Of a stretch of DNA of 55,633 nucleotides, positions 3,437 through 23,387 are shown in pieces. This DNA is from Natrinema versiforme JCM 10478. Its GTDB lineage: Archaea > Halobacteriota > Halobacteria > Halobacteriales > Natrialbaceae. The position numbers and the translations under genes are program-made. Within the stretch, counting starts at the first letter, position 1. Every line of letters begins with the position of its first letter. The notes below the pieces were generated by a model. The model worked only from the letters and a program-made list of their open reading frames with translations. It did not search any database and was not told the origin of the DNA. The stretch is from assembly GCF_000337195.1 (NCBI RefSeq), contig NZ_AOID01000026.1, positions 172,923 through 228,555 of the forward strand. The letters are read 5' to 3'.

Positions 3437-3437
3437 C

Positions 3438-7759: not shown

Positions 7760-8143
7760 ACGGATACACCCCACCCGCCCGTCCCGCGCCGTCTGGTTTT
7801 CGGACCCCGTCGGCTCGCCGCGTTCGACCGCGACCGTCGTGGCGGACCGCACGCGTTATTTCGGGCGTTCATTGAGTCCGACTTGTGTCGGTGACGGTGA
7901 TAAACTCCCTGATTAGACTGCTGGATCCGTATTCACATGGCATGCTATTGACGATCACTGAGAATGGGTCCCCTTCTCGTTCGGATCCGGAATCGGAACC
8001 GGACCCCGGGCAACGGGTACAGTCCCGCGAGCGAGCCCTCGTTCGGCCTGTCGTTCGCGGCGCACTCTGTACCCAATAACTGTATACAGCCTGCATGATT
8101 ACTGTGGACAAGTTATTTATGAGTGTTCCGCCTTCCCATACGT
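7760..8143. promoter_or_regulatory. Divergent intergenic region between permease and transaminase 1
   Basis: 384 bases without a convincing gene. The right part carries the transaminase promoter: the 19-bp shared palindrome at 8069-8087, a second partial copy at 8091-8109, and a TATA element TTATTTAT at 8113-8120. That TATA position predicts transcription starting at or near the ATG at 8144. The left part holds the permease promoter, which I cannot place exactly. Short open frames within 7869-8189 show no haloarchaeal codon or residue pattern. Confidence 0.6.
8069..8087 (+). promoter_or_regulatory. Candidate operator, site A (transaminase 1-ridA)
   Basis: GTACCCAATAACTGTATAC, an imperfect palindrome with half-sites separated by 7 bases. 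It matches the consensus RTACACANWAACTGTRTAY shared with four other promoters in the window. It lies about 25 bases upstream of the TATA element, and a weaker copy with a good right half (CTGTGGAC) follows 22 bases later at 8091-8109, next to the TATA box. Confidence 0.7.
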
Positions 8144-9526
8144 ATGACGGCAGGACCGCCGATAGACGAACTCCACTTCGCGGACGCACCGACCGTCGAC
8201 GACGTGCCCGGCCCGAACACGCGGGCCCTGCTCGAGAAACAGCGCGAGATCGACAGCAGCGCGGTCGCCTACCCCGACGACATCCCGATCGCCTTCGAGG
8301 AGGGCAAGGGCGCGACGGTCCGGGACGCCGACGGCAACACCTACATCGACCTCTTTGCGGGCATCGGCGTGCTCAATGTCGGCCACTCGAACCCCTACGT
8401 GCTCGAGGCGGTCCACGAGCAGGCCGACAAGTTCGTTCACACGGTCGACTTCCCGACCGAAGCGCGCCTCGAGTTGATCGAGAAACTCGACGAGATCGCC
8501 CCCGACGGCCTGCAGGGCCAGAACAAGGTCGTCTTCGGCGGCCCGACCGGCAGCGACGCCATCGAGGCGTCGATCAAACTCTCCAAGTACAACACGGGCG
8601 GCGACGGCCTGATCGCGTTCCGGGGCGGCTACCACGGCGCGACCTCCGGCGCGATGAGCGTCACGTCGAACAAGAAGTTCAAGGGGGAGTACACGCCGCT
8701 GCTCTCCGATGTCGTCCACGCGCCGTATCCGCACCCGTTCCGACAGGACAAGACCCCCGAGGAAGCGGTCGATCACGCGCTCGAGGAGGTCCAGGCCATC
8801 GTCGAAGATCCCTACGGTGGGCTGGCGAACCCGGCCGGCATCATCGTCGAACCAATTCAGGGCGAAGGCGGCATCGTCACGCCGCCGAAAGGGTTCCTGC
8901 AGGGACTGCGAGACATCGCCGACGACAACGACGTGACGCTCGTCTTCGACGAGATTCAGAGCGGCCTCGGCCGCACCGGCCAGTGGTGGGCCAGCGACTG
9001 GGACGGGGTCGCCCCCGACGCGATGACGAGCGCGAAGGCGCTGGGCGGCGTCGGCTTCCCGCTCTCGGCCACGATGTATCACGAGGACCTCGACACGTGG
9101 GGGCCGGGCGACCACGCCGGCACCTACCGCGGCCACGTCGTCGGCATGCGAGCCGGCACCCGCGCCATCGAGTACATTCAGGACCACGACCTACTCGCCC
9201 ACGCCCGCGACCTCGGCGAGTACATCCAGGGGCGGCTCCGCGAAGCCGCCGACGGCAACGATCGTCTGGCCGATATCCGCGGCAAGGGTCTCTTCATCGG
9301 TGCGGAGTTCGTCGACGCCGACGGCAAGCCCGACGGCGACCTCGTCGACGCCGTCCAGCAGTACTGCTTCGAGCGCGGCGTCCTCGTCTGGACGGCCGGC
9401 CGCCACGGCAACGTGCTCCGGTTCCTGCCGCCGCTGGTGTTGACCCACGAACTGGCCGAGACGGCGCTCGACGTCGTCGTCGAAGCGATCGAAAGTGTGA
9501 CCGCCGAAGCGAAACGAGCCGCCTGA
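8144..9526 (+). CDS. Class III aminotransferase (candidate diaminobutyrate/GABA-type transaminase)
   Basis: 460 aa PLP enzyme of the omega-transaminase class. It shows [19 protein letters not shown] near residue 60, the PLP-contact motif [12 protein letters not shown] near 270, and the Schiff-base lysine in TSAKALGG near 300. Family members move an omega- or alpha-amino group to 2-oxoglutarate; DoeD of ectoine breakdown (diaminobutyrate to aspartate semialdehyde) belongs here. The ATG at 8144 is preferred over a GTG at 8123 because the TATA element at 8113-8120 predicts a leaderless transcript starting there. ridA follows 18 bases downstream, so both are co-transcribed and probably controlled by operator site A. 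Confidence 0.88.
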
Positions 9527-9544
9527 GACTCGAGCCGAGAGTCC

Positions 9545-9946
9545 ATGTCCGATATCGACTCGATTGCAACCGACGACGCACCGAGCACCGACAACCCCTA
9601 CTCGCAGGGCGTCCGCGCCGGTGACACGCTGTACGTCTCCGGCTACGGCCCCGTCGATCCCGAAACGGGCGCGGTCGTCGAGGGCGACATCGAGGCCCAG
9701 ACCGACCGGGTACTCGACAACATCGCCGCCGTCGTCGAGGAAGCCGGCGGCGACGGCCTCGAGGACGTGGTCAAAGTCACCGTTTACCTGACCGATCTCG
9801 AGGACTACGAACAGGTCAACGAGGCCTACGGCGCGCGGTTCGGCGCGGACCCGCCGGCTCGAGTCTGCGTGGAAGTCTCGCGGCTCCCCGAAGACGTCCG
9901 CGTGGAACTCGACGCGACGGCGTCTCTGGGCTATAGTAGCTCTTGA
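9545..9946 (+). CDS. ridA: RidA family enamine/imine deaminase
   Basis: 133 aa. RidA proteins hydrolyse reactive 2-aminoacrylate-type enamines released by PLP enzymes. Family features are NPYSQGVRAGDTLYVSG near residues 17-33, IEAQTDRVLDNIAAVVEEAG, VVKVTVYLTDLEDY near 76-90 and the catalytic-site RVCVEVSRLP with its conserved Arg near 107. The gene follows transaminase 1 by 18 bases, which fits a protective role. The last residues (YSSS) and the stop codon are not family sequence: they are encoded by the left arm of the palindromic element at 9932-10015, so an insertion appears to have replaced the original C-terminus. The fold should survive because only the extreme tail is affected. Confidence 0.92.
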   Translation: MSDIDSIATDDAPSTDNPYSQGVRAGDTLYVSGYGPVDPETGAVVEGDIEAQTDRVLDNIAAVVEEAGGDGLEDVVKVTVYLTDLEDYEQVNEAYGARFGADPPARVCVEVSRLPEDVRVELDATASLGYSSS

Positions 9947-10015
9947 AAGTCAATGCACACCCAATCGCTGGACAGCGTTGCGATCGGTGTGTAAATCGTT
10001 TCAAGAGCTACTATA
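9932..10015. mobile_element. MITE-like 84-bp palindromic element
   Basis: Perfect 17-bp terminal inverted repeats, TATAGTAGCTCTTGAAA at 9932-9948 and its complement at 9999-10015. The interior is also nearly self-complementary (CACACCCAATCGC against GCGATCGGTGTG), so the whole element can fold into one long hairpin. There is no coding capacity. The left arm overlaps the end of ridA and supplies its final codons and TGA. This architecture is that of a miniature inverted-repeat element mobilised in trans; I could not find a second copy or a parent insertion sequence in the window. As RNA it could also act as a terminator or 3' end-stabilising hairpin. Confidence 0.7.
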
Positions 10016-10176
10016 ACCGAACCACCGCCGGCCGCAGCGAGTCCAACGATTGCGGTCTGGGGCACGGAAACTGTGACCAATCCGACTCGATCCGTGACGA
10101 TCGCTATCGATACTGCGTAATCGGTGTACGATTATTGACTACGATTAAGTAGCTCCCGCGCGTAGAACCGGCAAGA

Positions 10177-11457
10177 ATGTCCTCTGACGTGCGAAACAGA
10201 CTGAGCGATCTCCGGCGTGCGTTCCACCGCCACCCCGAACCCGGCTGGCGCGAGTTCCGGACGACGGCCCGGGTGGTCGAGGAACTCGAGCGGATCGGCG
10301 TCGACGAGATCGCCGTCGGCCGCGAGGCCTTGGCGACCGACGAGCGCATGGCCGTTCCGCCCGAGTCGGAACTCGAGCCGTGGCTCGAGCGCGCCCGCGA
10401 GGCTGGAGTCAGATCGGATATCCTCGAGCGCACCGCCGACGGCCACACTGGGGTTATCGCGGTGCTCGAGCAGGGGGAGGGCCCCTGTCTCGGACTGCGC
10501 GTCGACCTCGACGCGATCTCGATGCGCGAGTCCGACGAGCGCGACCACCGGCCGGCCGCGGAGGGCTTTCGCTCCGAACACGACGGCTACATGCACGCCT
10601 GCGGCCACGACGCCCACGTCGCGATGGCCCTCGGCACGCTCGAGCGGATCAAGGAGAGCGACTTCGACGGGACGGTAACGGTCTTCTTCCAGCCCGCCGA
10701 GGAGATCTCCGGCGGCGGGAAGGCGATGGCCGAGAGCGGCTACCTCGACACCGTCGACTACCTCCTCGCGCTCCACATCGGGCTGGACCATCCCACGGGC
10801 GAGATCGTCGCCGGCATCGAGAAACCGCTGGCGATGGCCCACCTGACCGCGACGTTCGAGGGCGCGAGCGCCCACGCGGGCAAGGCCCCGAACGAGGGGG
10901 CAAACGCCATGCAGGCGGCGGCGACCGCGATCCAGAACGCCTACGGCATCCCCCGGCACAGCGACGGGATGACCCGCATCAACGTCGGCCGCATCGAGGG
11001 CGGCACCGCGAGCAACGTCATCGCCGAGGAGGTTTCCATCGAGGCAGAGGTCCGCGGCGAGACCACCTCGCTGATGGAATACACGCGCACGGAACTCGAG
11101 CGAGTGCTGTACGCCGCCGCCGAGATGCACGACTGCGACGTGACGCCGCGGGTGATCAGCGAATCGCCCCGGGTCGACAGCCATCCCGCCCTGCGGGACC
11201 TCGTGGGGAACGTCGCGTGGGAGGTCGAGGGGGTCGACCGCGTCGTTCCGAGCGAGGAGTTCGGCGTGAGCGAGGACGTGACCTACCTGATGGAGCGGGT
11301 CCAAGCGGACGGCGGCCTCGCCTCGTACGTCCTCATCGGCACCGATCATCCGACGAGTCACCACACCCCGACGTTCGATATCGACGAATCGAGTCTCGAG
11401 ATCGGCGTGGGGCTGCTGACCGAGACGGCCGTCGAACTCTCCCGCCGTCGACCGTAG
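10177..11457 (+). CDS. M20 amidohydrolase, AbgA-like (copy 1)
   Basis: 426 aa metallopeptidase of the M20D group. It follows the layout of AbgA, the p-aminobenzoyl-glutamate hydrolase subunit: RRAFHRHPEPGWREFRTTA near residue 12, an inserted region ending WLERAREAG, metal motif MHACGHDAH near 137-145, FFQPAEE near 172, HIGLDHPTG near 202, the dimerisation domain, and TDHPTSHHTPTF at the C-terminus with a metal-binding His. A TATA-like GATTAAG at 10143-10149 sets leaderless initiation at ATG 10177. It is clearly paralogous to the gene at 17448-18782. The substrate is probably an N-acyl amino acid; N-acetyl-diaminobutyrate is a hypothesis. No good copy of the shared operator is seen before it. 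Confidence 0.88.
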   Translation: MSSDVRNRLSDLRRAFHRHPEPGWREFRTTARVVEELERIGVDEIAVGREALATDERMAVPPESELEPWLERAREAGVRSDILERTADGHTGVIAVLEQGEGPCLGLRVDLDAISMRESDERDHRPAAEGFRSEHDGYMHACGHDAHVAMALGTLERIKESDFDGTVTVFFQPAEEISGGGKAMAESGYLDTVDYLLALHIGLDHPTGEIVAGIEKPLAMAHLTATFEGASAHAGKAPNEGANAMQAAATAIQNAYGIPRHSDGMTRINVGRIEGGTASNVIAEEVSIEAEVRGETTSLMEYTRTELERVLYAAAEMHDCDVTPRVISESPRVDSHPALRDLVGNVAWEVEGVDRVVPSEEFGVSEDVTYLMERVQADGGLASYVLIGTDHPTSHHTPTFDIDESSLEIGVGLLTETAVELSRRRP

Positions 11458-11545
11458 CGGAACGGTCCGGTTCGTCGAACTGTTCGTCTGTGATCACGTT
11501 CGACGGATGGGAAACGTTAATTCGCGAGCTATCCGTGTATCCGAT

Positions 11546-12196
11546 ATGAGTCAGGACGACGTGCCGGAGTCACTGCAACCGGCGGCGGACTCGGATCGAC
11601 CCCGCGGAATTCTTACGCCCTCCGACCGTGACTTCCTGCTCGGCCGGAAGACGGACTACACCGACCACTCGAAAAAACAGAAGCGAAACCGGATCCGACG
11701 CCGGGTCCGGAACGCGATTCTCGATTTCAGCATTCTCTTCGAGTACATGGAGGAACGCGACCGGGAGACGGTCTTCGATCCCGACGACGAGGACCGCGAC
11801 GCCTACACGCAGGGGATCACCGACATGCTCGCCTTCCTCCACCTCGGCACGATGGGGTATCACACCCCGTTCAAAGAGATGCTCTCGGAGGGCGTCGGCA
11901 AGGCCGAACAGCGACTCGCCGGCTCGAACTACCGCATGGTCAACGTCGAGTTCAACGTCGACCCGGTCGGCCAGATCGATGTCGACGAGGTCGTCGAAAA
12001 ACTGGAAAACGAGGAGTTCGCCAAACTCACCGACGAGGAACTCCGCGCGTTCGTCCGATTGCTGACGATGTCCGACGACTTCTCGCCGGAAGACACCGGC
12101 GAGGAGATCAAAGACCGCGTCGACGAGTTCGCCGAACGGGTGACCGAGAGCGCCGAGGCCCGCGAGGCGACGTTCCAAGAACTGACGAATCGATAG
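11546..12196 (+). CDS. Conserved haloarchaeal protein of unknown function
   Basis: 216 aa, soluble and acidic. I recognise the conserved N-terminal pattern RGILTPSDRDFLLGRK followed by a basic helix (KKQKRNRIRRRVRNAILDF), widespread in haloarchaeal hypothetical proteins, but no assigned function. The basic segment could contact nucleic acid; the C-terminal half is helical and acidic. ATG at 11546 is chosen because a TATA-like GTTAATT at 11515-11521 lies at leaderless distance; an earlier ATG at 11507 would overlap that promoter. It sits between amidohydrolase 1 and the BCCT gene but has its own promoter and no shared operator. Confidence 0.7.
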   Translation: MSQDDVPESLQPAADSDRPRGILTPSDRDFLLGRKTDYTDHSKKQKRNRIRRRVRNAILDFSILFEYMEERDRETVFDPDDEDRDAYTQGITDMLAFLHLGTMGYHTPFKEMLSEGVGKAEQRLAGSNYRMVNVEFNVDPVGQIDVDEVVEKLENEEFAKLTDEELRAFVRLLTMSDDFSPEDTGEEIKDRVDEFAERVTESAEAREATFQELTNR

Positions 12197-12589
12197 CCCG
12201 GACACGCCAGCTATCGAATTTCGTTTTCGGTCCGCCGACGCCGGCTGCCGAGCGTGGCTCTCATCGTCCGTTGTCCGTACCGCTCGAGCCGCCGCTGCTC
12301 AGTTACCGTTTATCCTACTAGTTACTGAAAACGCTATCCGAACACAACTATTGACAGTGTGTTCGATACTACTCCGTTCTCCGAAACAAATGAACACAAC
12401 GGATGGAAATACGGCTGTCTTCTGCATATCCGTCTGATACACGGAAACTGTGGATATTTTCGCGAGGTGAGAAACACTTATTGTATACGCCGTCAATGGT
12501 AGCGGTATGCCATCACGCAGCATGGCGAACGGTAGGTGGAGCCACGCACAACCAGCCCGCTGTCGTGCGCTTTCCGGAGGTGAGACGGG
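12197..12589. promoter_or_regulatory. Upstream region of the BCCT transporter
   Basis: 393 bases without a gene. The right half is AT-rich and contains the shared operator (12437-12455), a second partial copy over the probable TATA element (12470-12488), and a leader of roughly 85 bases ending in a strong Shine-Dalgarno GGAGGTGA at 12576-12583, six bases before the ATG. A leader with Shine-Dalgarno is unusual in this otherwise leaderless neighbourhood. The left half shows nothing recognisable. Confidence 0.6.
12437..12455 (+). promoter_or_regulatory. Candidate operator, site B (BCCT transporter)
   Basis: ATACACGGAAACTGTGGAT, matching RTACACANWAACTGTRTAY. A second weaker copy, AGAAACACTTATTGTATAC at 12470-12488, starts 33 bases later (about three helical turns) and covers the likely TATA element, so binding could block TBP/TFB. 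Confidence 0.7.
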
Positions 12590-14236
12590 ATGAGCGACGC
12601 CGAGAAGGGAATGGTCGACGAGTTCCTCGAGGAACTCGATCTGGTCGTCTTCGCGTTCGGTGCGTTGCTGACCGTCGGCGTGATCGCGGCGTTCTTCATC
12701 AACGAGACGCTCGTCACTGAGACAATCGGGACCGTCTACGACTGGGTTGTCACGTACCTGAACTGGGCGCTGCTGGTGATCGTCTTCCTGATCGTCCTCT
12801 TCCTGTTGTTCCTGATCGTCGGGCCGTGGGGGAAGATCAAGATGGGGGACTCGGATCCGGAGTACAGTTTCCTGTCGTACTTCGCGATGTTGTACTCGGC
12901 CGGCTTCGCGGCGGGCGTCGTCTTCTGGGGTCCGACCGAGGCGCTGTTCTACTACGATTCCCCGTCGCCGCTGTTCGGCGTCGAGGGCGGAACGGCCGAG
13001 GCGATCCCGATCGCGATCCAGCAGACCTTGTTCCACTGGGCGCTGCCGCAACTGGCCGTGTTCACGATCATGGGGCTCGCGATCAGCTACTTCGCGTACA
13101 ACTACGACGACGTCCCGCTGCGGGTCTCCTCGGCCCTGACGCCGATTCTCGGCAAGGAGAACCTCGACGGTCCGGCCGCGAAGGTCGTCGACATCCTCGC
13201 CGTCTTCGCGACGATCGGCGGCGTGGCCACGTCGCTCGGCTTCATCGGGAGCCAGTTCATCGCCGGTCTCAACTACCAGTGGGATATCGCTCTGGGGAAC
13301 GTCGGCATCCTCATCGTCGTGACCACGATGACGCTCCTGTTTACGATCTCGATGGTGCTTGGCGTCGACAGGGGGATCCGCCGGCTGTCGAACTTCAACA
13401 TGATCCTGTTCGTCGTGCTCATGCTCGCGACGTTCATTCTGGGACCGACGCTGTTCTTGCTCCTGCTGGGTTCGCAGGCGATGGGCGGCATGATCGCCGA
13501 CTTCACGTCCATGAGCCTCTACACCGGAGCCGGCTCCGACGGCGGCACGGGATGGATGAACTCCTGGACCGTCTTCTACTGGGCGTGGGCGCTCTCGTGG
13601 TCCCCGTTCGCCGGCCTGTTCATCGCCCGGATCTCCAAGGGCCGGACCGTTCGCGAAGTCGCCTTCACCGGGATTGGCGCGACTTCGGCCGCGACCATCC
13701 CGTGGTTCACGTTCGTCGGCGGCACCGCGCTGCGATACCACCACAACGGAACGGCCGACTTCAGCAGCGTGATCGCCAACAGCACGCCGGAGGTCTCGGG
13801 CTTCATCCTCTTCGAAGCCTTCCCCTTCGGAACCGTGTTCATGGTCGCCTTTATGATCCTCGTGACGACGTTCTTCATCACGTCGGCGGACTCGTCGACG
13901 CTCGCCGTCTCCATGATGACGACCGGCGGGAAGGCGAGTCCCTCGACCATTAATCGGGTCTTCTGGGGCGTCGTCCTCGGGATGACCGCGGCGATCCTCA
14001 TGATCATCGGCGGCGAAGGCGGCACGAGCGCGCTCCAGAACGCTGTCATCATCACCGGCGCACCCTTCGCCTTCGTCTGTTTCGCGGCGATGCTCTCGCT
14101 GATCACGGACTTCAGCTCGAGCTACGGCCGGGTGCTACTACAGGACGAAACCGTCCTCGTCGGCTCGAGTGCGAAAACCGAACCCGAACCGGAATCGCCC
14201 GGTCCCGGCGGCCCCGTCGAATCGGACGACGACTGA
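12590..14236 (+). CDS. BCCT-family betaine/ectoine-type transporter
   Basis: 548 aa with about 12 membrane segments. The BCCT signature is present near residue 325: a Trp-rich helix (FYWAWALSWSPFAGLFIARIS) then KGRTVRE. The helix equivalent to the BetP glycine stretch reads SAGFAAGVVFWGPTEALFYY near residue 100, so the GMGIG of sodium-coupled members is GFAAG here; coupling cannot be decided. The C-terminal tail is short and acidic-proline rich (EPEPESPGPGG), without the basic osmosensing tail of BetP. Family substrates are quaternary or zwitterionic solutes such as glycine betaine, carnitine and ectoine. Its promoter carries the operator shared with the ectoine-hydrolase gene, which suggests import for catabolism. 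Confidence 0.92.
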   Translation: MSDAEKGMVDEFLEELDLVVFAFGALLTVGVIAAFFINETLVTETIGTVYDWVVTYLNWALLVIVFLIVLFLLFLIVGPWGKIKMGDSDPEYSFLSYFAMLYSAGFAAGVVFWGPTEALFYYDSPSPLFGVEGGTAEAIPIAIQQTLFHWALPQLAVFTIMGLAISYFAYNYDDVPLRVSSALTPILGKENLDGPAAKVVDILAVFATIGGVATSLGFIGSQFIAGLNYQWDIALGNVGILIVVTTMTLLFTISMVLGVDRGIRRLSNFNMILFVVLMLATFILGPTLFLLLLGSQAMGGMIADFTSMSLYTGAGSDGGTGWMNSWTVFYWAWALSWSPFAGLFIARISKGRTVREVAFTGIGATSAATIPWFTFVGGTALRYHHNGTADFSSVIANSTPEVSGFILFEAFPFGTVFMVAFMILVTTFFITSADSSTLAVSMMTTGGKASPSTINRVFWGVVLGMTAAILMIIGGEGGTSALQNAVIITGAPFAFVCFAAMLSLITDFSSSYGRVLLQDETVLVGSSAKTEPEPESPGPGGPVESDDD

Positions 14237-14370
14237 GACGGGTTCTTGTACCGATTTCCCAGCCAAGCCACCACCCCGGCCGACGAGCCGCGTCGGCCGT
14301 CATGCTGTCTGCGTTCTGCGAACGACCGATCGTCCCCCTCGCCAATCTATAACAAGTTTTAATGTACGAG

Positions 14371-14389
14371 GTACACATAAACTGTGTAT
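14371..14389 (+). promoter_or_regulatory. Candidate operator, site C (transaminase 2)
   Basis: GTACACATAAACTGTGTAT, the best match to the shared palindrome. It overlaps the predicted transcription start and the ATG at 14388 downstream of a TATA-like GTTTTAA (14356-14362). This position would favour repression, whereas sites A, B and E lie upstream of the TATA element. Confidence 0.72.
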
Positions 14390-15749
14390 GGATAGGGACA
14401 CGGCGGAGCCCGACGCGGACGCGCTTCCGGGGCCGAACGCCCAGCAGTGGGTCGACTTCCACCAAGAGTACTCCGCGCCCAGCGAGTACTCCCACGAGTT
14501 CGTCTGGGACGTGACCCGCGAGGCCGACGGCCCCTTCGTCACCGACGTCGACGGGAACGTTCTCCTCGATTTCACCTGTCACATCGGCGCGGCACCGCTC
14601 GGCTACAACAACGCGAAGGTCCTCGACAAGGTCCGCGAGTTCGACCTCGTCGAACCGATGAAGATTGCGGGCCAAGACATGTACTTCGGTGCCGGCCCCA
14701 CCCCCGAGGAGTCCGACGTGCCCGGCTCGAGTCACCTGATGAAGAAACTGACCGAGGTCTCGAGTCAGTACGGGATGGACACCGTCTTCCTCTCGAACTC
14801 CGGCGCGGAGGCCATGGAGAACGCGATGAAGATCACCCACGACTACCGCGCACCGTCGAAGTACGGCGTCGCCTTCGGCGGCAGCTTCCACGGCCGCACC
14901 CTCGGAACCCTCTCCCTGACGAAATCCAAGGAGGTCTACACGCGCCACTACCCCGAGATTAGCGGGATCGAGACGGTCCCGTTCTGCGCCGACCGGGGCT
15001 GTGACGCCGGTAGTTGCGACTGCGGCTTCTTTGCGGGCGGCGGCTCGCAGCTCCGGAACATGCTCTCGCCGGAGGGCGGCCACGTCAACCCCGACGAGAT
15101 CGCCTTCCTCACGCTCGAGCCGATTCAGGGCGTCGGCGGCTACCGGTTCCCTAGCGAGACGTTCATGGGGGAGGTCGCGGCCGTCACCGACGAGTACGAC
15201 ATCCCGCTGGTCGTCGACGAGATCCAGTCCGGGGTCGGCCGCACCGGCGAGGTCTGGGCGTCCGATCACTACCCGATCGAACCCGATGTCATCGCCAGCG
15301 CGAAGGCCCTGCGGGTCGGCGCGACCATCTCCCGCTCCGAAGTCTTCCCCAGCGAGAAGAACCGGCTGGGGTCAACCTTCGGCGGCGGCGATCTGCTCGG
15401 TTCGATGATGGGTGCGTTCACGCTCGAGGCGATTCAGGAACACGACCTGCTCGACAACGCGACCCGCCGCGGCGAGCAGGCAAAGGAACTCCTGCGCGAC
15501 GACGCGCCCGACCACGTCGAGGATATCCGCGGGAAGGGACTGATGCTCGCCGTCGAATTCGACACCCCCGAACGGCGGAGCGCCGTCGTCGAGGCGGCTC
15601 TCGAGCGCGGCCTGCTCACCCTCGGCTGCGGGAAGCAGACCATCCGGCTGCTCCCGCCGCTCGACTCGACCGAACGCGAGATCGAACTCGGGATCGGAAT
15701 CTTCCTCGAGGCGATCGAGGCCGTCGGCCCGAGCGCGAAAGTCGCCTGA
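14388..15749 (+). CDS. Class III aminotransferase (second copy, divergent)
   Basis: 453 aa PLP transaminase. Features are DGNVLLDFTCHIGAAPLGY near residue 60, NSGAEAMENAMK near 130, FHGRTLGTLSL near 165, VDEIQSGVGRTG near 270 and lysine in SAKALR near 300. A Cys-rich insertion (CADRGCDAGSCDCG) near residue 205 is a likely metal or structural loop and is absent from transaminase 1. The fold resembles lysine-6-aminotransferase and 4-aminobutyrate transaminases. The start at 14388 is leaderless (TATA-like element at 14356-14362) and overlaps operator site C. It is probably monocistronic. A role in transferring an amino group from diaminobutyrate or a related diamine is inference from the gene neighbourhood. 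Confidence 0.88.
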   Translation: MDRDTAEPDADALPGPNAQQWVDFHQEYSAPSEYSHEFVWDVTREADGPFVTDVDGNVLLDFTCHIGAAPLGYNNAKVLDKVREFDLVEPMKIAGQDMYFGAGPTPEESDVPGSSHLMKKLTEVSSQYGMDTVFLSNSGAEAMENAMKITHDYRAPSKYGVAFGGSFHGRTLGTLSLTKSKEVYTRHYPEISGIETVPFCADRGCDAGSCDCGFFAGGGSQLRNMLSPEGGHVNPDEIAFLTLEPIQGVGGYRFPSETFMGEVAAVTDEYDIPLVVDEIQSGVGRTGEVWASDHYPIEPDVIASAKALRVGATISRSEVFPSEKNRLGSTFGGGDLLGSMMGAFTLEAIQEHDLLDNATRRGEQAKELLRDDAPDHVEDIRGKGLMLAVEFDTPERRSAVVEAALERGLLTLGCGKQTIRLLPPLDSTEREIELGIGIFLEAIEAVGPSAKVA

Positions 15750-15839
15750 CGACCGGCGTCGAACGATCGGCTTTCGGCTCCGCCCTCGCGGGGCTGACGG
15801 CTGGTACCGGGCCAGCCGAAAAGCGAAGGCCGACCCGTC

Positions 15840-16121: not shown

Positions 16122-16218
16122 ACCCGAAATTGTCTGTGTGATGTAAAAAACGCTTCGCTGACATCCATTTGATCGCCGGCCGGTTCCGTTCGCCTGACGA
16201 CCGGAATACGGCCGTCAG

Positions 16219-17451
16219 TTACTCGAGCGACCGTTCCACGACCGCAATCCCCTCGAGCGCATCCAGTGCCTCGAGCACGCCCGCGAGGTGCTCGGGGCCG
16301 CTTCCCTCGAGCCCGATCGTCACGGGGACTCGGTTCGGGTGATCGACCGCGGCCCGACGAGCGCGCTCGAGCACGTCGAGTTCAGCCCCTTCGGCTTCGA
16401 CGGTTTCGACCACGTCGCCGACCGTCGTCGGCCAGCCCTCGACGGCGAGTCTGGCGTCGGCGTAGCGCTCGAGTTCGTGGAGGCCGGTTCGGGCGAGTTC
16501 GGCGTGGTCGGTGAGGTTGACGTTGCCGCCGGAGATCACGACGCCGACGTGGTCGCCCGCGAGGTCGATCTCGTCCGACAGCGCCGCGGCCAGCGGCGCG
16601 GCCCCAGCCCCCTCGGCAACCGTCTTCGCGCGTTCTGCGAGCAGGGTCACCGCGGCGGCGATCTCGCGATCGCTCACGCTCACCACGTCGTCGACAACCT
16701 CGCGGGCGATTTCGAAGGTCGTCTCGAGCATCCGGGTGTCCGCGATCCCCTCCGCGACGGTGTCGACGTCGGCGAACTCCCTGATCTCGCCGGCCTCGAG
16801 CGAGGGTTTCGCGTGGGCCGCGCCCTCGGGCTGGACGCCGACCACGCGAACGTCGCGCTCGGCGGCTTTGCACACCGTGCCGATCCCCGAGATGAGCCCG
16901 CCGCCGCCGATCGCCACGAGGACGGTCTCGATCTCGGGGTACTGCTCGAGCAGTTCGAGCCCGATCGTGCCCTGTCCCGCCACGATGGCCTCGTCGTCGA
17001 AGGGGTGGACGAACGTCTCGCCGGTTTCGGCGGCCCGCTCGAGGGCGTACTCGTAGGAGCGCTCGTAGATGTCGCCCTCGACGACCACCTCGGCCCCGTA
17101 GCCCCGGGTGGCCTCGATCTTCGCGGCCGGGGTTACCTCCGGCACCACGATCGTCGTCTCGATGTCGAGCAGGTCGCCGGCCAGCGCCACGCCTTGGGCG
17201 TGGTTGCCCGCACTCGAGGAGATGACCCCCGCCTCGCGTTCGGCGTCGGAAAGCTGTGCCATCTCGTTGTACGCGCCGCGGATCTTGAACGAGCCCGTCC
17301 GCTGGACGTTCTCGAGTTTGAGTCCGACCGAAGCCGCGCCGCTCATGTCGGCGAACGTCCGCGAGGTGTCGAGCGGCGTGCGGTGGACGACGTCCGCGAT
17401 GCGCTCTCGTGCCGCCTCGATGTCAGCGAGCGTGACGCGAGCCTCGCTCAT
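16219..17451 (-). CDS. Threonine dehydratase (ammonia-lyase)-type PLP enzyme with ACT-like domain
   Basis: 410 aa, fold-type II. The PLP lysine is in TGSFKIRGAYN near residue 55, SSSAGNHAQG near 80 binds the carboxylate, and IGGGGLISG near 180 holds the phosphate. The C-terminal 80 residues (from about 330) form an ACT-like regulatory region. It is known chemistry for threonine or serine deamination to 2-oxoacids; the homologue EutB occurs in proteobacterial ectoine/hydroxyectoine clusters. Its ATG overlaps the stop of the M20 gene by 4 bases (17448-17451), so both are translationally coupled and controlled by site D. That coupling, plus RidA nearby, supports a catabolic rather than isoleucine-biosynthetic role. 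Confidence 0.9.
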   Translation of the reverse strand: MSEARVTLADIEAARERIADVVHRTPLDTSRTFADMSGAASVGLKLENVQRTGSFKIRGAYNEMAQLSDAEREAGVISSSAGNHAQGVALAGDLLDIETTIVVPEVTPAAKIEATRGYGAEVVVEGDIYERSYEYALERAAETGETFVHPFDDEAIVAGQGTIGLELLEQYPEIETVLVAIGGGGLISGIGTVCKAAERDVRVVGVQPEGAAHAKPSLEAGEIREFADVDTVAEGIADTRMLETTFEIAREVVDDVVSVSDREIAAAVTLLAERAKTVAEGAGAAPLAAALSDEIDLAGDHVGVVISGGNVNLTDHAELARTGLHELERYADARLAVEGWPTTVGDVVETVEAEGAELDVLERARRAAVDHPNRVPVTIGLEGSGPEHLAGVLEALDALEGIAVVERSLE

Positions 17452-18782
17452 TCCCCGCCCTCCGCAACCTCTGCCGTGTCCCCATCGGAGTCCGCGACGT
17501 GGGGTACTGGGTGGCGCGCCTCGAGTTCCCGGATCGTCTCGACCAGTACGTCGACGCCGTGCTCGAGACTGCGCTCGTCCACGTCGAAGGTGGGCGTGTG
17601 GTGGCTCGTCGGGTGGTCGGTGCCGACGATCAGGTAGGTCGCCAGCCCGCCCTCGTTCTGGACTCGCTCCATCAGGAACGTCGCGTCCTCGCTCGCGCCG
17701 AAGTCGGCGGCCGGCAGCACGCGGTCGATCCCGTCGACCTCGCCCGCGACCTCGCCCACCAGCGCCTGCAGTTCGGGGTCGCTGTCGGCTCGGGGCGACT
17801 CGCTGACCACGTCGACGTCGGCCCGACAGCCGTGCATCTTCGCCGCCGATCGCATCGTGCGCTCGAGGCGGCGCTTCACGTACTCCATCAGCTCGGTGGT
17901 CTCGCCGCGGGCCTCGGCCTCCATGTGGGCACGCTCGGCGATGACGTTGCTCGCGGTGCCGGCCTCGGCTTTCCCGACGTTGACGCGGGTCATCCCGTCG
18001 CTGTGCCGGGGGATGCCGTAGGCGTTGACGATCCCGGCACCCATCGCGTGCATGGCGTTTGCCCCCTCGTTCGGGGCCTTGCCCGCGTGCGCAGAGGTTC
18101 CCTCGATGGTCACGTCGACGTGACACATGGCGAGCGGCTTCTCGATCCCGGCTACGACCTCGCCGGTCGGGTGATCGAGACCGACGTGGATCGCGAGCAG
18201 GTAGTCCAGTCCGTCCGCGAACTCGCTTTTCGCCATCGGACACCCGCCGCCGCCGGTCTCCTCGGCGGGTTGGAAGAAGACCACGAACCGACCCGCGAAG
18301 TCGCTCTCGGCGATGGCCTCGAGGACGGCCAGCCCCCACGTCATGTGGGCGTCGTGGCCGCAGGCGTGCATCGTGCCGTCGATCTCGGAGCGAAATCCCT
18401 CGGCGGCGGGGTCGTGGTCCGCGTCGGTCGATTCCTCGATGAACAGCCCGTCGATGTCCACGCGCAGCCCGATCGACGGCCCCTCGCCGCGCTCGAGGAC
18501 CGCGACGGCACCCGTATTGCCGCCGGTCATCCGCTCGAGTACCTCCTCGTCCGCGCCGCGCTCGCGGGCCCGCTCGAGCCACGGCTCGAGGTCCGCGTCG
18601 GGGACGGCCATCCGATCCGCGGGGTCGTAGGCGTCCGGACCGACGGCGAGTTCGTCGACGCCGATGGCCCGGATCTCCTCGACGAGCTGGGCCGTCGTGA
18701 GGAACTCGCGCCACGCCGGCTCGGGGTGGCGGTGAAAGCTGCGACGAACCGTCACGAGTCGGTCCTGAATCGGCTCGGTCAT
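17448..18782 (-). CDS. M20 amidohydrolase, AbgA-like (copy 2)
   Basis: 444 aa, paralogous to 10177-11457 over its whole length. It keeps RRSFHRHPEPAWREF near residue 14, metal motif MHACGHDAHM near 137, FFQPAEETGGGG near 172, HVGLDHPTG near 203 and TDHPTSHHTPTF near 400. The extra C-terminal tail (about 20 residues, acidic) is absent from copy 1. ATG at 18782 is preferred to GTG at 18791 because the TATA-like GTATAATTAA (complement of 18807-18816) predicts transcription starting there. It is the first gene of a two-gene operon with the dehydratase. The operator site D partly overlaps its TATA element. The substrate is unknown; an N-acyl diamino acid is the working hypothesis. Confidence 0.88.
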   Translation of the reverse strand: MTEPIQDRLVTVRRSFHRHPEPAWREFLTTAQLVEEIRAIGVDELAVGPDAYDPADRMAVPDADLEPWLERARERGADEEVLERMTGGNTGAVAVLERGEGPSIGLRVDIDGLFIEESTDADHDPAAEGFRSEIDGTMHACGHDAHMTWGLAVLEAIAESDFAGRFVVFFQPAEETGGGGCPMAKSEFADGLDYLLAIHVGLDHPTGEVVAGIEKPLAMCHVDVTIEGTSAHAGKAPNEGANAMHAMGAGIVNAYGIPRHSDGMTRVNVGKAEAGTASNVIAERAHMEAEARGETTELMEYVKRRLERTMRSAAKMHGCRADVDVVSESPRADSDPELQALVGEVAGEVDGIDRVLPAADFGASEDATFLMERVQNEGGLATYLIVGTDHPTSHHTPTFDVDERSLEHGVDVLVETIRELEARHPVPHVADSDGDTAEVAEGGE

Positions 18783-18814
18783 GCGAGTCACTGTCGCGCC
18801 CCAGGGCCTTAATT

Positions 18815-18833
18815 ATACACAATCTATGTTTAC
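18815..18833 (+). promoter_or_regulatory. Candidate operator, site D (divergent promoter)
   Basis: ATACACAATCTATGTTTAC between the divergently transcribed amidohydrolase-dehydratase operon and the hydroxyacid dehydrogenase gene. It touches the TATA element of the leftward operon. A perfect half-site ATACAC recurs 24 bases later at 18839-18844, toward the rightward gene. One site can serve both directions. Confidence 0.68.
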
Positions 18834-18892
18834 GACGGATACACAAAAGGATAAGTTAGCGGCTGACAATCGTCCGGTAACGCATCACCGAC

Positions 18893-19870
18893 ATGAGCAC
18901 GAATCCAGACGTCGTCGTTCTGAGAGAGGGGACGGAGGGGTTATCGATGGAATCGTACGCCGAACGGCTCCGCGAGCGACTGCCCGACCACACCGTCGCG
19001 CTCGCGCGGACGCCGAAGGAAGAACGCGAACTGGTCCCGCAGGCGCGGGTCGTGACCGGGATCTCGATCGACGAGAGCCTCCTCGAGCGGGCCGATCGGC
19101 TCGAGCTGTTCGCGTGTACCTTCGCCGGCACCGACCACGTGCCGATGGACGCCCTCGCGGACCACGGGGTCGCAGTGACGAACGCGGGCGGCATCCACGC
19201 GCCCGGCATCGCCGAGCAGACGATCGCCAACATGCTCGTCTTCGCGCGCCGGCTCCACGAGGGCTGGCGGCGCAAGGAAAACGGCGAGTGGCGACACTTC
19301 CAGTCGTTCGAGTTCACCGACAGCACCGTCACGGTCGTCGGCCTCGGCTCGATCGGACAGGCGGTCATCCAGCGACTCGAGGGGTTCGAGGTCGAGACGA
19401 TCGGGATCCGGTACACCCCTGAGAAGGGCGGCCCGACCGACGAGGTGCTCGGCTTCGGCGAGGACGATGTCCACGAGGCCTTCTCCCGGAGCGACTACGT
19501 CGTGCTCGCGTGCCCGCTCAACGATCTGACTCGCGGGCTGGTCGGCGAGGAGGAACTGGCGACGCTCCCGCCGAACGCGGTCGTCGTCAACGCGGCCCGC
19601 GGCGGGATTATCGACACCGACGCGCTCGTCTCGGCGCTGCAGTTCGAGGGCATCCGCGGGGCCGCCCTCGACGTTACCGATCCCGAACCCCTGCCCGCCG
19701 ACCATCCCCTGTGGGACCTCGAGAACTGTCTGCTAACGCCCCACACCGGCGGTCACACGCCGAAACACTGGGACCGACTGGCCGACATCGTCGCGGGCAA
19801 CGTCGACGCCCTCGAGACCGGCGGCGACCTCGAGAACGCCGTCTATCGGCCCGACTCGACTCGAGAGTGA
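18893..19870 (+). CDS. D-2-hydroxyacid dehydrogenase, NAD(P)-dependent
   Basis: 325 aa. The Rossmann motif VVGLGSIGQ is near residue 145, and the catalytic triad is visible: Arg in NAARGGIIDT near 235, Glu in DVTDPEPLP near 263 and His in LTPHTGGHT near 285. The family interconverts 2-oxoacids and D-2-hydroxyacids. It is divergent from the M20-dehydratase operon and shares operator site D. A 2-oxoacid made by the dehydratase or a transaminase is a plausible substrate, which is inference. The ATG at 18893 lies about 40 bases after an AT-rich element near 18846-18856. Confidence 0.9.
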   Translation: MSTNPDVVVLREGTEGLSMESYAERLRERLPDHTVALARTPKEERELVPQARVVTGISIDESLLERADRLELFACTFAGTDHVPMDALADHGVAVTNAGGIHAPGIAEQTIANMLVFARRLHEGWRRKENGEWRHFQSFEFTDSTVTVVGLGSIGQAVIQRLEGFEVETIGIRYTPEKGGPTDEVLGFGEDDVHEAFSRSDYVVLACPLNDLTRGLVGEEELATLPPNAVVVNAARGGIIDTDALVSALQFEGIRGAALDVTDPEPLPADHPLWDLENCLLTPHTGGHTPKHWDRLADIVAGNVDALETGGDLENAVYRPDSTRE

Positions 19871-19943
19871 GGCGGCAGGCGGGCCGTAATGTGTCCCACG
19901 CGGGGCTCTCGAGCGGCCCTGTTTTCCTCCTGTGACGGGACTG

Positions 19944-20639
19944 TCACCCAGTCTCTTCCGATCGGTCGTCAGACGTGTCGAAGGGCACGGTCGGGCTCGT
20001 TCCGTCCGGGCGTTTGGTATCGCCGAACCCGCCGCTTAGCATCCGTGCGAGCGCTTCCTCGACGGAATCATCGGTTTCGGTGACGCGGCTCGCCTCGGCC
20101 TCGACGACGAAGCCGGAGGTGACGTTCGGTGCCGTCGGAATGAAGAGCACGACCCGGCCGTCGGTGGTCGTCTGGCCGGTCTTGAACGCCGTCATCTCGA
20201 CGCCGTCCCAGCTTTCGACCCTGACCGGTTCCTGCAGCGCCTGCTCCTCGCCGAGCGTGGTTTCGGCGGCGACCTTCGACGCGTTGTAGACGACGCGCAG
20301 CCCCGGGACGCGGTTCGCGAACCCGTCGACGCTCCGCGCGAAGAGATCCCCGATCGTCGTTCGGGTCAAGACGCCAATCGCGACGGTCACGAGGAAAAAG
20401 AAGCTCAGAGAGGCGATCAGCCGGAGGACGCTGACGACGCGAATGCGGGTCGGTTCGTGGGCGATCAGGCCGCTCAACGCCGTTTCGTCGAGCACGAGCG
20501 TCGGCGTGACGCCGGTCACGATCGCGTAGGCCCGGTAGACGACGTACAGCGTAACGAGTATCGGCCCGATGAGGATGAGCCCGCTCGCGAACACCCGCTT
20601 CCACGACGCCATACTCGAAGCATGCGACCGGTGGGACAT
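19944..20639 (-). CDS. DUF502-family membrane protein
   Basis: 231 aa. Two hydrophobic segments (about residues 18-40 and 70-95) are followed by a soluble domain with the family hallmarks RVPGLRVVYNASKV near 120 and LFIPTAPNVTSGFVVEAE near 168. DUF502 proteins are conserved in bacteria and archaea, with no established reaction. The C-terminal 30 residues are acidic and low-complexity. ATG at 20612 (MASWKRV) is an alternative start. It lies between the hydroxyacid dehydrogenase and the glutamate dehydrogenase but shows no sign of joint control with them. Confidence 0.85.
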   Translation of the reverse strand: MSHRSHASSMASWKRVFASGLILIGPILVTLYVVYRAYAIVTGVTPTLVLDETALSGLIAHEPTRIRVVSVLRLIASLSFFFLVTVAIGVLTRTTIGDLFARSVDGFANRVPGLRVVYNASKVAAETTLGEEQALQEPVRVESWDGVEMTAFKTGQTTTDGRVVLFIPTAPNVTSGFVVEAEASRVTETDDSVEEALARMLSGGFGDTKRPDGTSPTVPFDTSDDRSEETG

Positions 20640-20756
20640 GAGCCCTTCCCTTCTCCCGGTCGCGATCGACGTCGATCGCCCACGTCGACTCGAGTCGAAT
20701 CCCCAGCGACGATCAGCCGTGTCGACGCCGTCCGAATCGCCGGCGGTCGGGTTCGA

Positions 20757-22064
20757 TCAGGGCCAGAGCCCGCGCGTCTCCTTGGCCTCCGCGATCCGGG
20801 ACAGCGCCACCACGTAGGCGGCGTCGCGCCACGTCAGCCCCTCGGCGTCGACCTGCGCTTGAACGGCGTCCCACGCTTCGAGCATGTGCTCCTCGAGTTC
20901 CTCGTTGACCCGCTCGAGGGACCACTGACGGCGGTTGATGTCCTGCAGCCACTCGAAGTAGGAGACGGTGACCCCGCCCGCGTTCGCGAGGATGTCCGGA
21001 ATCACCTGCACGTCCCGCTCCTCGAGGATGGTGTCGGCGGCGAAGGTGGTCGGGCCGTTCGCGCCTTCGACGACGATATCGGCCGCGATCGCGTCGGCGT
21101 TGTCCGCCGTGATGACGTTGCCGACCGCGGCCGGAATGAGCACGTCGATGTCTAACTCGAGGAGGTCCTCGTTCGAGAGCTGTTCGACGCTGTCCGCGTC
21201 GGCGATCTCGGACGCAAAGCGGGTGACCGCTTCGGGCTCCTCGTCGTGGGCGGGAATCTCCTCGACATCGATTCCCTCGGAGTCGTAGATCGCGCCGTTA
21301 ACGTCCGAGACAGCAACGACGGTTGCGCCCCACTCCTCGAGCAGGCGAGCGGCGTTCGCGCCGACGCTGCCGAACCCTTGGACGGCGACGGTCGTCTCGG
21401 AGAGTTCGCGGTCGTAGTACTTGACGGCCTCCCGCGTGACGATGGCGGTCGACCGGCCGGGAGCTTCCTCGCGGCCGTAGGAGCCGCCGATGACCGGCGG
21501 TTTCCCGGTGACGACGCCGGGAATCGTCTCGCCCTGTTGCATCGAGTAGGCGTCCATGAACCACGCCATCGTCTGGGCGTCGGTCCCCATGTCCGGTGCG
21601 GGAACGTCTTTTTTCGGCCCGACCGCGTCGCGCAGTTCCTCGGCGAACCGGCGGGTGAGCCGCTCGGTCTCGTCGTCGGTCAGCGACTTGGGATCGACGG
21701 CGATGCCGCCTTTCCCGCCGCCGAAGGGCAAATCCATCACGGCGCACTTCCAGGTCATCCACATCGAGAGCCCGGTACATTCCTCGGCGCTGACCTCGGG
21801 GTGGTAGCGCAGGCCGCCCTTGTAGGGGCCGCGCACGTCGTCGTGTTGGGCCCGATAGCCGGTGAAGACCTCGACCGCACCGTCGTCGCGCTCGAGGGGG
21901 ACCGACACCTGCTGGACCCGCGTCGGGTGTTTCAGGCGCTCGACGACGCCGGGGTCGACGTCGACGTGGGTCGCGGCTCGTTCCAACTGGCGGCGGGCGG
22001 TGACCAGCGCGGAGTCGGGCTCGTCCGCCGGTTCGCTCTCCGTTGTGGATGGTGGTGTGGTCAT
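20757..22064 (-). CDS. gdhB: Glutamate dehydrogenase
   Basis: 435 aa, hexameric Glu/Leu/Phe/Val dehydrogenase family: reversible oxidation of glutamate to 2-oxoglutarate and ammonia. The glutamate site reads [11 protein letters not shown] near residue 78, the catalytic lysine lies in PFGGGKGGI near 113, DMGTD is near 160 and the Rossmann motif QGFGSVG near 230. The N-terminus with [16 protein letters not shown] is typical of one haloarchaeal paralogue commonly called GdhB; the symbol is from memory. It is separated from doeA by 62 bases on the same strand, and read-through is possible. It would regenerate the 2-oxoglutarate consumed by the two transaminases. Confidence 0.93.
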
Positions 22065-22126
22065 CGTGTGATAGTCGGGTTCCAGACGCTAGTATCTGAG
22101 CCATACCATGGTCGGGGTAGGCCGCG

Positions 22127-23308
22127 TTACGTCGTGAACAGCTCCCGCGGGAAGTCGGCCAGCGTCTCCGCGCCGCTACCGGTGACGTGGAACGTCTCGC
22201 TGATCTCCATGCCGATCTCGTCCGTCCAGATGCCCGGAATCATGTGGAACGTCATGTCCTCCTCGAGGACCGTCTGGTCGCCGGGCCGGATGCTCGCGGT
22301 GTGCTCGCCCCAGTCCGGCGGGTAGCCCAGTCCCATCGAGTAGCCGATTCGGTCCTCCTTCTCGAGGCCGTACTGGGCGATGGTCTCGCGCCACGCTTCC
22401 TCGACCGACTCGCAGGTAACGCCGGGTTCGGCGGCGTCGAGCGCCGCCTCGAGCCCCTCGACGACGATATCGGCGGTCTCCTGGAGTTCCGCGGGCGGGT
22501 CGCCGACGAACGTCGTGCGAGCGAGCGGGGAGTGATACCGATGGCGACAGCCCGAGAGTTCGATGATGACCGGATCGCCGTCCTCGAACTCGCGGTCGGT
22601 CCACGTGAGATGCGGCGTGCCGGTGTGGTCGCCCGAGGGCATCAGCGGAACGATCGAGGGGTAGTCGCCGCCGTACTCCTCGGTGCCCGTGATCAGTTGC
22701 TCGTAGATCGCGGCCGCGGCCTCGTACTCCGGAACGCCTTCCTCGATGACGTCGAGGCCCGCCCGCATCGCGTTCTCCGAGATCCGAGCGGCCTCGCGCA
22801 TGTACTCGAGTTCCTGCTCGGACTTCTTGATCCGGACCCAGCCGACCAGCAGCGTCGCGTCCTCGAACTCGGCCTCGGGAAGGTTCTCCTGCAGGCGCGT
22901 GTAGGACTTCGCGGTGAAGTAGGCGGCGTCCATCTCGAGGCCGATCCGGCCGTCTTCGACCTCGAGTTCCTCGAGGACGCCCGCGACGTAGTCCATCGGG
23001 TGGAGGTCGTGGGGCGAGTGGACGTGGTCGTCGCTGTAGGCGCGAATGCTGTCGTCGCCGAGGTGGGTCGTCGCCCGCGCGCCGCCGCCGTCCATGTCGC
23101 GGCCGATCCAGACGGGTTCGTCCCGGTCTGGCGTGACGACCACGGCCTGATGGACGTAGAACGACCAGCCGTCGTACCCTGTGAGGTAGTTCATGTTCGC
23201 CGGATCGGCGACGACGATCGCGTCGAGGTCCTCCTCGCGCAACCGCTCTTTCGTCCGAGCGACCCGCCGCTCGTACTCGGCCTCGTCGAAGATATGCTCT
23301 CGTGGCAT
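22127..23308 (-). CDS. doeA: Ectoine hydrolase-like M24 enzyme (DoeA/EutD)
   Basis: 393 aa, creatinase/aminopeptidase P fold. It matches the ectoine hydrolase subfamily in diagnostic places: NMNYLTGYDGWSFYVHQ near residue 40, MDGGGAR near 75, HPMDYVA near 105, RIGLEMDAAYF, then GGDYPSIVPLMPSGDHTGTPHLTW near 220, CRHRYHSPLARTTF near 265, YPPDWGEHT near 330 and PRELF at the end. The enzyme opens the ectoine ring to N-acetyl-diaminobutyrate. ATG at 23308 begins MPREHIFDEAEYERR; the T-rich TATA element is near 23346-23354. Site E lies upstream of it. Ectoine specificity is strongly suggested but not proven; hydroxyectoine or another cyclic amidine is possible. Confidence 0.85.
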   Translation of the reverse strand: MPREHIFDEAEYERRVARTKERLREEDLDAIVVADPANMNYLTGYDGWSFYVHQAVVVTPDRDEPVWIGRDMDGGGARATTHLGDDSIRAYSDDHVHSPHDLHPMDYVAGVLEELEVEDGRIGLEMDAAYFTAKSYTRLQENLPEAEFEDATLLVGWVRIKKSEQELEYMREAARISENAMRAGLDVIEEGVPEYEAAAAIYEQLITGTEEYGGDYPSIVPLMPSGDHTGTPHLTWTDREFEDGDPVIIELSGCRHRYHSPLARTTFVGDPPAELQETADIVVEGLEAALDAAEPGVTCESVEEAWRETIAQYGLEKEDRIGYSMGLGYPPDWGEHTASIRPGDQTVLEEDMTFHMIPGIWTDEIGMEISETFHVTGSGAETLADFPRELFTT

Positions 23309-23368
23309 GGTAACAGGGTGTCTACGACGAGCATCGACCAGGAGTGCTAAAAACTTTTCGTGTATATT

Positions 23369-23387
23369 GGATACAGATACTGTGTAT
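23369..23387 (-). promoter_or_regulatory. Candidate operator, site E (ectoine hydrolase)
   Basis: Read on the minus strand: ATACACAGTATCTGTATCC. It lies about 15 bases upstream of the doeA TATA-like element. A perfect half-site ATACAC follows 22 bases downstream (complement of 23360-23365), as at site D. Confidence 0.7.

Follow-up and report, generated by a model that had tools for sequence, protein, structure and literature searches.

We examined a 55,633-nucleotide stretch of the genome of the haloarchaeon Natrinema versiforme JCM 10478 (contig NZ_AOID01000026.1, positions 172,923 to 228,555 of the forward strand; hereafter the window), in which 19-bp palindromes lie in the promoters of a gene cluster presumed to serve ectoine breakdown. 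It appears that these palindromes are the operators of a conserved ectoine-type regulon of haloarchaea and that the product of a gene at 11546-12196 is its cognate regulator, belonging to a new autoregulating family. We place the probability of this reading at roughly 0.82, and regard the assignment of the protein as the cognate factor as equally probable. The genomes compared show conserved sites, near-perfect copies of which are rare and which gather in the promoters of the cluster; protein and sites are, moreover, present or absent together. The initial annotation of this DNA had held that no regulator was adjacent, which is probably wrong, as the candidate gene lies inside the cluster itself; the missing regulator has thus probably been found. 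The palindromic sequences of the window are:

8069-8087: site A, putative operator 5' of the transaminase 1-ridA genes
8091-8109: weak partial second site beside A, score 7.9
11529-11547: imperfect palindrome over the ATG of the 11546-12196 gene, 5 of 9 pairs
12437-12455: site B, putative operator of the BCCT transporter gene
12470-12488: sixth site, AGAAACACTTATTGTATAC, in the BCCT promoter, 33 bp from B
14371-14389: site C, overlapping the transaminase 2 start codon and ending at the T of its ATG
18815-18833: site D, between the divergent M20b and 2-hydroxyacid dehydrogenase genes
23347-23365: second, weaker doeA site, score 11.8, overlapping a TATA-like sequence, 22 bp from E
23369-23387, minus strand: site E, putative operator of doeA, its centre 70 bp before the ATG

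The five 19-mers described initially (A to E) were all found where they had been placed, and T-A-C at positions 2-4, C at 6 and T-G-T at 13-15 are indeed identical in all of them, E being read as the minus strand. With a matrix built from these five, they rank 1 to 5 within the window (scores 24.5-30.5), followed by the sixth site at 20.5, and the highest score outside the six is 12.3; a later matrix ranked the sixth site (25.6) above B (21.2) and A (20.4). Extra half or partial sites had also been proposed beside A, B, D and E. The one at B proved to be the strong sixth site and the one at E was upheld as the weaker site 22 bp away, but the sequence 22 bp from A scores no better than some chance windows, and that at D is a half-site by eye only. 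The level of pairing over the ATG of the candidate regulator gene is also reached by 60 of 760 control starts.

The genome of the strain (G000, 4.19 Mb) was scanned with the reversed pattern as control. The pattern TACACA-N5-TGTGTA occurs there once without mismatch (site C), once with one mismatch (site D) and at 25 places with two, A, B and E among them. At up to three mismatches there is no enrichment in this genome (306 places vs. 396 for the control), and therefore only near-perfect matches carry meaning. Five of the 27 places with at most two mismatches fall inside 15.3 kb (binomial P 5e-8); this value is optimistic because the pattern was derived from the same sites, so that it is conservation elsewhere that tests the pattern fairly. 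A looser consensus, RTAHACRNWWWNYGTDTAY, which was derived from relatives, occurs at 11 places with at most one mismatch, six of them within the cluster, and at 33 places with up to two mismatches, compared to 10 for the control. The places outside the cluster are three on contig C19, one on C22 before a DUF7344-like gene and an AT-rich one on C55. The C19 places (L090 8612-8630, 9933-9951 and 10429-10447) span about 3.2 kb around what by eye is a ParA-like gene, in a mobile-element-like stretch, and a similar arrangement is present in another genome (L159 of G044, 6964-9098). These were taken as unrelated to the regulon; possibly they are the partition site of a mobile element that mimics the ectoine operator. 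The C22 palindrome (C22:77167, L091) was dropped, as no comparable site was found in the loci of 13 related genes, where the best score was 13.5 and lay away from the gene; this is a weak test, most of the relatives being just 33-56% identical.

Conservation was examined in 59 doeA loci, 54 of them haloarchaeal (many from close relatives of the window) and five bacterial. Scored with the matrix that derives solely from the five window sites, 53 of the 54 haloarchaeal doeA promoters contain a site of at least 12 (48 have one of 14 or more), as against none of the five bacterial promoters and 22 of 1139 windows drawn at random from these loci, which bears out the earlier proposal that the sites are operators of one catabolic regulon. 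A check for equally good sites at random genome positions did not refute the regulon, nor did one for conservation in orthologous promoters, where the sites are retained. Sites occur in several haloarchaeal families in the transaminase 2, doeA, BCCT, M20/hydroxyacid dehydrogenase and transaminase 1 promoters, as promoter types and not as each promoter in each genome. The doeA site lies about 60-70 bp before the ATG in most loci and is often followed, after 20-22 bp, by a weaker one. The 33-bp spaced pair of the BCCT promoter recurs in six loci (L016, L018, L022, L025, L030 and L035), and relatives also carry a site between M20b and the hydroxyacid dehydrogenase gene. At transaminase 2 the site is centred 8 bp before the ATG in most loci that show it. 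An alignment of 28 such promoters, in which rows L020, L021, L041, L045, L053 and L064 are anchored on the wrong ATG and only the readable rows were used, has a TATA-like box followed by the palindrome, which runs into the start codon so that its final two bases coincide with the A and T of ATG. In a sample of 61 genomes of the family, 34 contain a perfect site and three a perfect match to the reversed control pattern.

The distribution of the protein was compared with that of the sites in a class-wide sample of 292 genomes, with orthologues called at E<=1e-40 for the 11546-12196 protein and at E<=1e-120 for DoeA. An orthologue of the former is present in 93 genomes and DoeA in 103, and all 93 genomes with the protein have DoeA. 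Perfect sites occur in 83 of these 93, in one of the 10 genomes with DoeA only (G290, where the site is 1.86 Mb from the cluster) and in 22 of the 189 with neither. Five of the ten protein-positive genomes without a perfect site were read, and all five have sites of at least 15 before cluster genes; in one of them, G093, there is none before doeA. In the family sample, a perfect site is present in all 30 genomes with both protein and DoeA (the DoeA match being a fragment in two of them); G033, with DoeA but not the protein, lacks a site, and G045, with the protein but no DoeA orthologue, still has the sites. A phylum-wide search with alignment A2 matched 12 of 148 genomes, 11 of them in the window's order; the one match outside it is weak (E 3.3e-6).

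All ten DoeA-only genomes were read. No site was found in G033 (threshold 15), in G063, G136, G264, G268 and G270 (threshold 13) or in G273 (threshold 11); G271 has one overlapping site pair about 1.9 kb 5' of its BCCT gene, and G290 a single weak half-site at doeA (14.9). When cluster promoters were scored, with starts set by hand from open reading frame listings, divergent pairs counted twice and G270 and G211 excluded, none of the 37 promoters in eight protein-less genomes reached 15 (highest 14.9), compared to 14 of 18 in the protein-positive G005, G021 and G015. G005 and G033 belong to one genus and have the same enzymes and BCCT transporter; G005 has the protein and sites at all seven promoters examined, whereas G033 has neither. 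The transaminase 2 promoters of G033, G268 and L062 retain the TATA-like sequence and the ATG around a decayed palindrome, which fits loss of a site and not its never having been there. Across these genomes the putative operator stays in front of orthologous genes and is missing where the proposed regulator is missing, G211 being the exception. Genes that by eye are IclR-like stand beside protein-less, siteless clusters (L208 6347-7141, L209 14497-15267 and L215 3-494; also L062 20359-21126) and near some protein-positive ones (L218-L220). Possibly they are a replacement regulator in the protein-less clusters.

The candidate regulator is encoded between the first M20 gene and the BCCT gene. 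Tested from a longer start at 11507, it matches neither a GntR nor an aminotransferase model of Pfam at E<=5, and no NCBIfam model at E<=0.1. Lrp/AsnC proteins typically bind AT-rich-centred palindromes, with phased multiple sites and autoregulation; the candidate differs in that no Lrp/AsnC profile matches it (neither HTH_AsnC nor AsnC_trans_reg). A basic N-terminal stretch, SKKQKRNRIRRRVRNAIL, has a net charge of +9 over 18 residues in an otherwise acidic protein (-21), a patch exceeded only by that of ribosomal protein L15e among 45 chosen of the 54 predicted window proteins. Structure prediction for the N-terminal part gave one long helix and two shorter ones, with a predicted local distance difference test score (pLDDT) of 77 and a predicted template modelling score of 0.57; its best VIA-align Z score was 5.6, to 7zol_A, which is not significant, and profile searches of Protein Data Bank sequences gave no E value better than 0.29. 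No viral relatives were found in the scans made for them. The N-terminal module of a paralogue (L196 protein, residues 6-58) does match phrog_26393 at E 4.7e-6; this viral family of unknown function is a 77-position profile with no C-terminal part, and it has no match to the window protein at E<=1.

Relatives of the protein point to control of its own gene in parts of the family. In L052, L066, L067, G005, G021, G015 and G094 the regulator gene has the motif intact and joined to its ATG, and in eleven further genomes a perfect site lies at most 50 bp 5' of the matched stretch (coordinates compared by eye). An operator at the gene's own promoter is thus found in some subfamilies and lineages, and not at the window copy. 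Paralogues share an N-terminal module, RGIL(T/S)xxDRxYL...RIRxR. From 55 paralogue loci we took 43 distinct 19-mers ending at the T of the ATG; identical ones were pooled, and loci that did not match the N-terminal expression were not included. At least six of nine palindromic pairs were found at this exact offset in 25 of the 43, compared to 23 of 760 other ATG starts and to 2.1% at other offsets of the same genes; three controls had seven or more pairs, and two of these are transaminase 2 operators. The largest set has the form RTAATC..GATTAT, and a second operator group reads RTAACC..GTTAT, with a second copy 5'. The pattern RTAATCNNNWNNNGATTAY was found 35 times in the 61 genomes, spread over 32 of them, against a single match for the control. 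Of these places, 28 are at the start of a family gene (27 by rule, one by overlap), three are 3.3 kb from one and four are elsewhere.

One paralogue has two palindromes 5' of or at its ATG (L196, L198, L202, L204 and L206), and its neighbour is by eye PCNA-like in L198, L202 and L204 and S-adenosylmethionine-synthetase-like in L196 and L206. Another (L193-L195), with an operator-like palindrome that is fused to the ATG and is mostly the only one in the genome, stands beside genes that by eye are MMPL-like transporter and long tRNA-synthetase-like genes.

From these patterns we infer that the 11546-12196 protein belongs to a haloarchaeal family of DNA-binding proteins that control their own genes, a family that seems not to have been described before. 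The simplest reading would be that the family binds operators at its own start codons and that one member took over the ectoine-type genes. We also lean, with clear reserve, towards a wider proposal, that this is the founding case of a transcription factor family outside the known DNA-binding families. Its basic helical N-terminal module would bind 19-bp palindromes of the form RTA-xy-C...G-y'x'-TAY, in which xy discriminates subfamilies (CA, TA or AA in the ectoine group; AT; AC) and which would end on the A and T of the gene's own ATG. One member would then run the first archaeal ectoine regulon described, as far as the literature was searched.

In the mechanism that we propose, a dimer would bind the palindrome through the conserved basic N-terminal module, and phased second sites at 22 or 33 bp would add cooperative binding; since both spacings are near whole helical turns, binding along one face of the DNA fits. 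Repression is the sign of regulation that we favour, although with less assurance than the pairing of protein and sites. It would be exerted at transaminase 2 and at the regulator's own gene by covering the start site, and fits there because the operators overlie the transcription start as placed from TATA spacing; haloarchaeal transcripts are often leaderless. At doeA, transaminase 1 and BCCT the protein would instead cover the region of the transcription factor B recognition element (BRE) and TATA box, which fits at doeA and transaminase 1 because the sites adjoin or overlie that region. Activation may nevertheless occur at these last two promoters. The C-terminal part would be the likely sensor, and release may be brought about by ectoine or by an intermediate such as N-acetyl-diaminobutyrate or diaminobutyrate (DABA). 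By analogy with EnuR (PMC5924519), the inducer is likely to be an early intermediate.

It is also conceivable that a conventional regulator encoded elsewhere, of the Lrp/AsnC, IclR, TrmB or a similar family, binds the palindrome and that the 11546-12196 protein is merely a member of the regulon. The protein's lack of a recognised DNA-binding fold would agree with this, as would the use of EnuR and AsnC/Lrp proteins in bacterial ectoine regulons (PMC5924519), the IclR-like genes seen by eye beside some clusters (L208, L209, L062/L215 and L218-L220) and, in the single genome G046, a perfect site (L161 7373-7391) 8 bp before an Lrp-like gene. However, enzyme promoters lack sites where the protein is absent, which is not expected if it were a mere target, and the paralogues have palindromes of their own at their own starts. 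The IclR-like genes were excluded as partners of the palindrome, as they occur beside protein-less clusters without sites, and the G046 gene was dropped since a relative at E<=1e-40 exists in only one of the 26 genomes near the window's. We consider a conventional regulator unlikely.

Less probable still, and by a wide step, is that the palindromes act in RNA, as hairpins or through ribosome-binding control at leaderless starts. Their fusion to the start codon at transaminase 2 and at some regulator genes would suit such a role, but at doeA the palindrome is 70 bp before the ATG, 5' of the TATA-like sequence and outside the expected transcript, and one copy lies between the divergent M20b and hydroxyacid dehydrogenase genes. 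That the sites are no more than AT-rich promoter stretches arising by chance in GC-rich DNA seems hardly credible. Perfect matches do turn up elsewhere (in the 22 of 189 genomes without cluster or protein, and near the ParA-like gene on C19 of G000), and three mismatches bring no enrichment in the strain's own genome; yet the excess in doeA promoters over random windows (53 of 54 vs. 22 of 1139), the fixed position relative to the ATG at transaminase 2 and doeA, and the perfect matches in 34 genomes of the family sample compared to three for the reversed control all argue against chance.

Several observations weigh against the 11546-12196 protein as regulator of an operator-bearing, autoregulated regulon. 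The protein has no Pfam or NCBIfam match above cut-off and no recognised DNA-binding fold, its full-length AlphaFold model is too poor to use (pLDDT 45.6), and the N-terminal model has no Foldseek match at E<=0.001 among solved structures. G211 lacks the gene and has three good sites; it is a 95%-complete draft in which a contig ends within transaminase 2, adjacent to where the gene normally lies, and the exception is likely due to an assembly gap. L062, which is without the protein, retains a doeA half-site and so counts among the 53 promoters with sites, and G015, with the most divergent orthologue, has strong sites at transaminase 2 and the regulator gene only. The genomes are related to one another: the DoeA-only cases apart from G211 represent six genera of six families, each of which also holds orthologue-positive genomes, and therefore amount to about six independent contrasts. 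In the window's genus and in Halorubrum the regulator start has an imperfect palindrome or none (1-5 of 9 pairs), so autoregulation is not supported there, the window copy included. Among the paralogues, several subfamilies have no palindrome (e.g. MLTTEDRRWL), the RTAATCNNNWNNNGATTAY pattern was derived from some of the genomes then searched, and 22 of the 25 palindromic starts belong by eye to one orthologous group (RTAATC..GATTAT), a count that lowered our confidence in the wider family proposal.

The genes of the cluster, as predicted from profile matches, are:

8144-9526, plus strand: transaminase 1, class-III aminotransferase (PF00202), ATG set by eye
9545-9946, plus strand: RidA (PF01042; TIGR00004 above cut-off)
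10177-11457, plus strand: M20a amidohydrolase (PF01546; DoeB2-like, NF038260, 117 of 550 bits)
11546-12196, plus strand: proposed regulator, 216 residues
12590-14236, plus strand: BCCT transporter (PF02028)
14388-15749, plus strand: transaminase 2, class-III aminotransferase (PF00202), start set by eye
16219-17451, minus strand: pyridoxal phosphate-dependent dehydratase, EutB-like below cut-off, threonine ammonia-lyase cut-off passed
17448-18782, minus strand: M20b amidohydrolase (PF01546), start set by eye
18893-19870, plus strand: D-2-hydroxyacid dehydrogenase family protein (PF02826)
20757-22064, minus strand: GdhB glutamate dehydrogenase, 3' of doeA (NF041398 above cut-off)
22127-23308, minus strand: DoeA/EutD-like M24 ectoine hydrolase (PF00557), start set by eye

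In the profile-based gene list a DUF502 protein sits between the hydroxyacid dehydrogenase and the glutamate dehydrogenase. Ectoine or hydroxyectoine is probably the substrate of the cluster, an assignment made indirectly because the matching ectoine-specific models score below their curated cut-offs and because the dehydratase passes the threonine ammonia-lyase cut-off. The window DoeA, whose best NCBIfam match is TIGR02993 (449.4 bits vs. a cut-off of 613), is 45-51% identical to the five bacterial relatives fetched; M20a and M20b match DoeB2 far below cut-off, and both transaminases match DABA transaminases below cut-off. Thus, in the earlier label of an ectoine-type regulon, the regulon stands and ectoine is its presumptive part. 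According to PMC4230888, the uptake of ectoine is a widespread trait among haloarchaea.

Beside the cluster, the region 2282-7852 encodes threonine-synthase-like and AstE/DoeB-like deacylase proteins (the latter at 101.9 bits vs. a cut-off of 402.7), a proline dehydrogenase and an amino acid permease; a scan with the window matrix found no strong site among these genes. Related loci have additional genes. An aldehyde dehydrogenase-like gene with a putative operator is present in L067 (1068-4912) and L219 (3826-10298), in neither of which a BCCT gene was found within the locus, and L067 has a weaker site (17) before ABC-transporter-like genes. A protein of about 1000 residues, by eye a flavin adenine dinucleotide-linked dehydrogenase (e.g. 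L063 12506-15676), is encoded in 27 of the 54 haloarchaeal loci (in the range L017-L069) and adjoins the hydroxyacid dehydrogenase gene in several; none was seen in the window cluster.

A regulon with its regulator is a familiar kind of system. EnuR, of the MocR/GabR type, is a bacterial repressor of the uptake and breakdown of ectoine and hydroxyectoine and is released by N-alpha-acetyl-DABA (N-alpha-ADABA) and DABA, according to PMC5924519. The EnuR regulon, with AsnC/DoeX, resembles the proposed one in controlling ectoine uptake and breakdown, but the archaeal candidate shows no match to either part of an EnuR-type protein, the N-terminal GntR winged helix or the pyridoxal phosphate-binding aminotransferase-like domain, and its putative operators are at several separate promoters in an archaeal promoter context rather than at one operon. 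EutD/DoeA has been reported together with aminopeptidase, aminotransferase and BCCT genes in Halobacteria (PMC13188858; Appl Environ Microbiol 2026); in the part of that article available, the haloarchaeal clusters are putative or provisional, without direct biochemical confirmation, no archaeal regulator or operator is named, and EnuR, AsnC and PucR are treated for bacteria. PMC13286277 concerns an Lrp/AsnC motility regulator that is unrelated to the ectoine operator. Among the matches listed from the open-access literature, none deals with this regulator or operator.

The finding would link a palindrome that had no assigned role to a regulator, as a pair that can be tested in archaeal ectoine breakdown. 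It also suggests a candidate function for a family of haloarchaeal proteins that is uncharacterised, three groups of which now have putative operator sequences. Genomes in which the protein is missing would provide natural cases of operator decay. If it is true that the N-terminal module binds DNA without a helix-turn-helix, then profile-based censuses of archaeal regulators miss a family.

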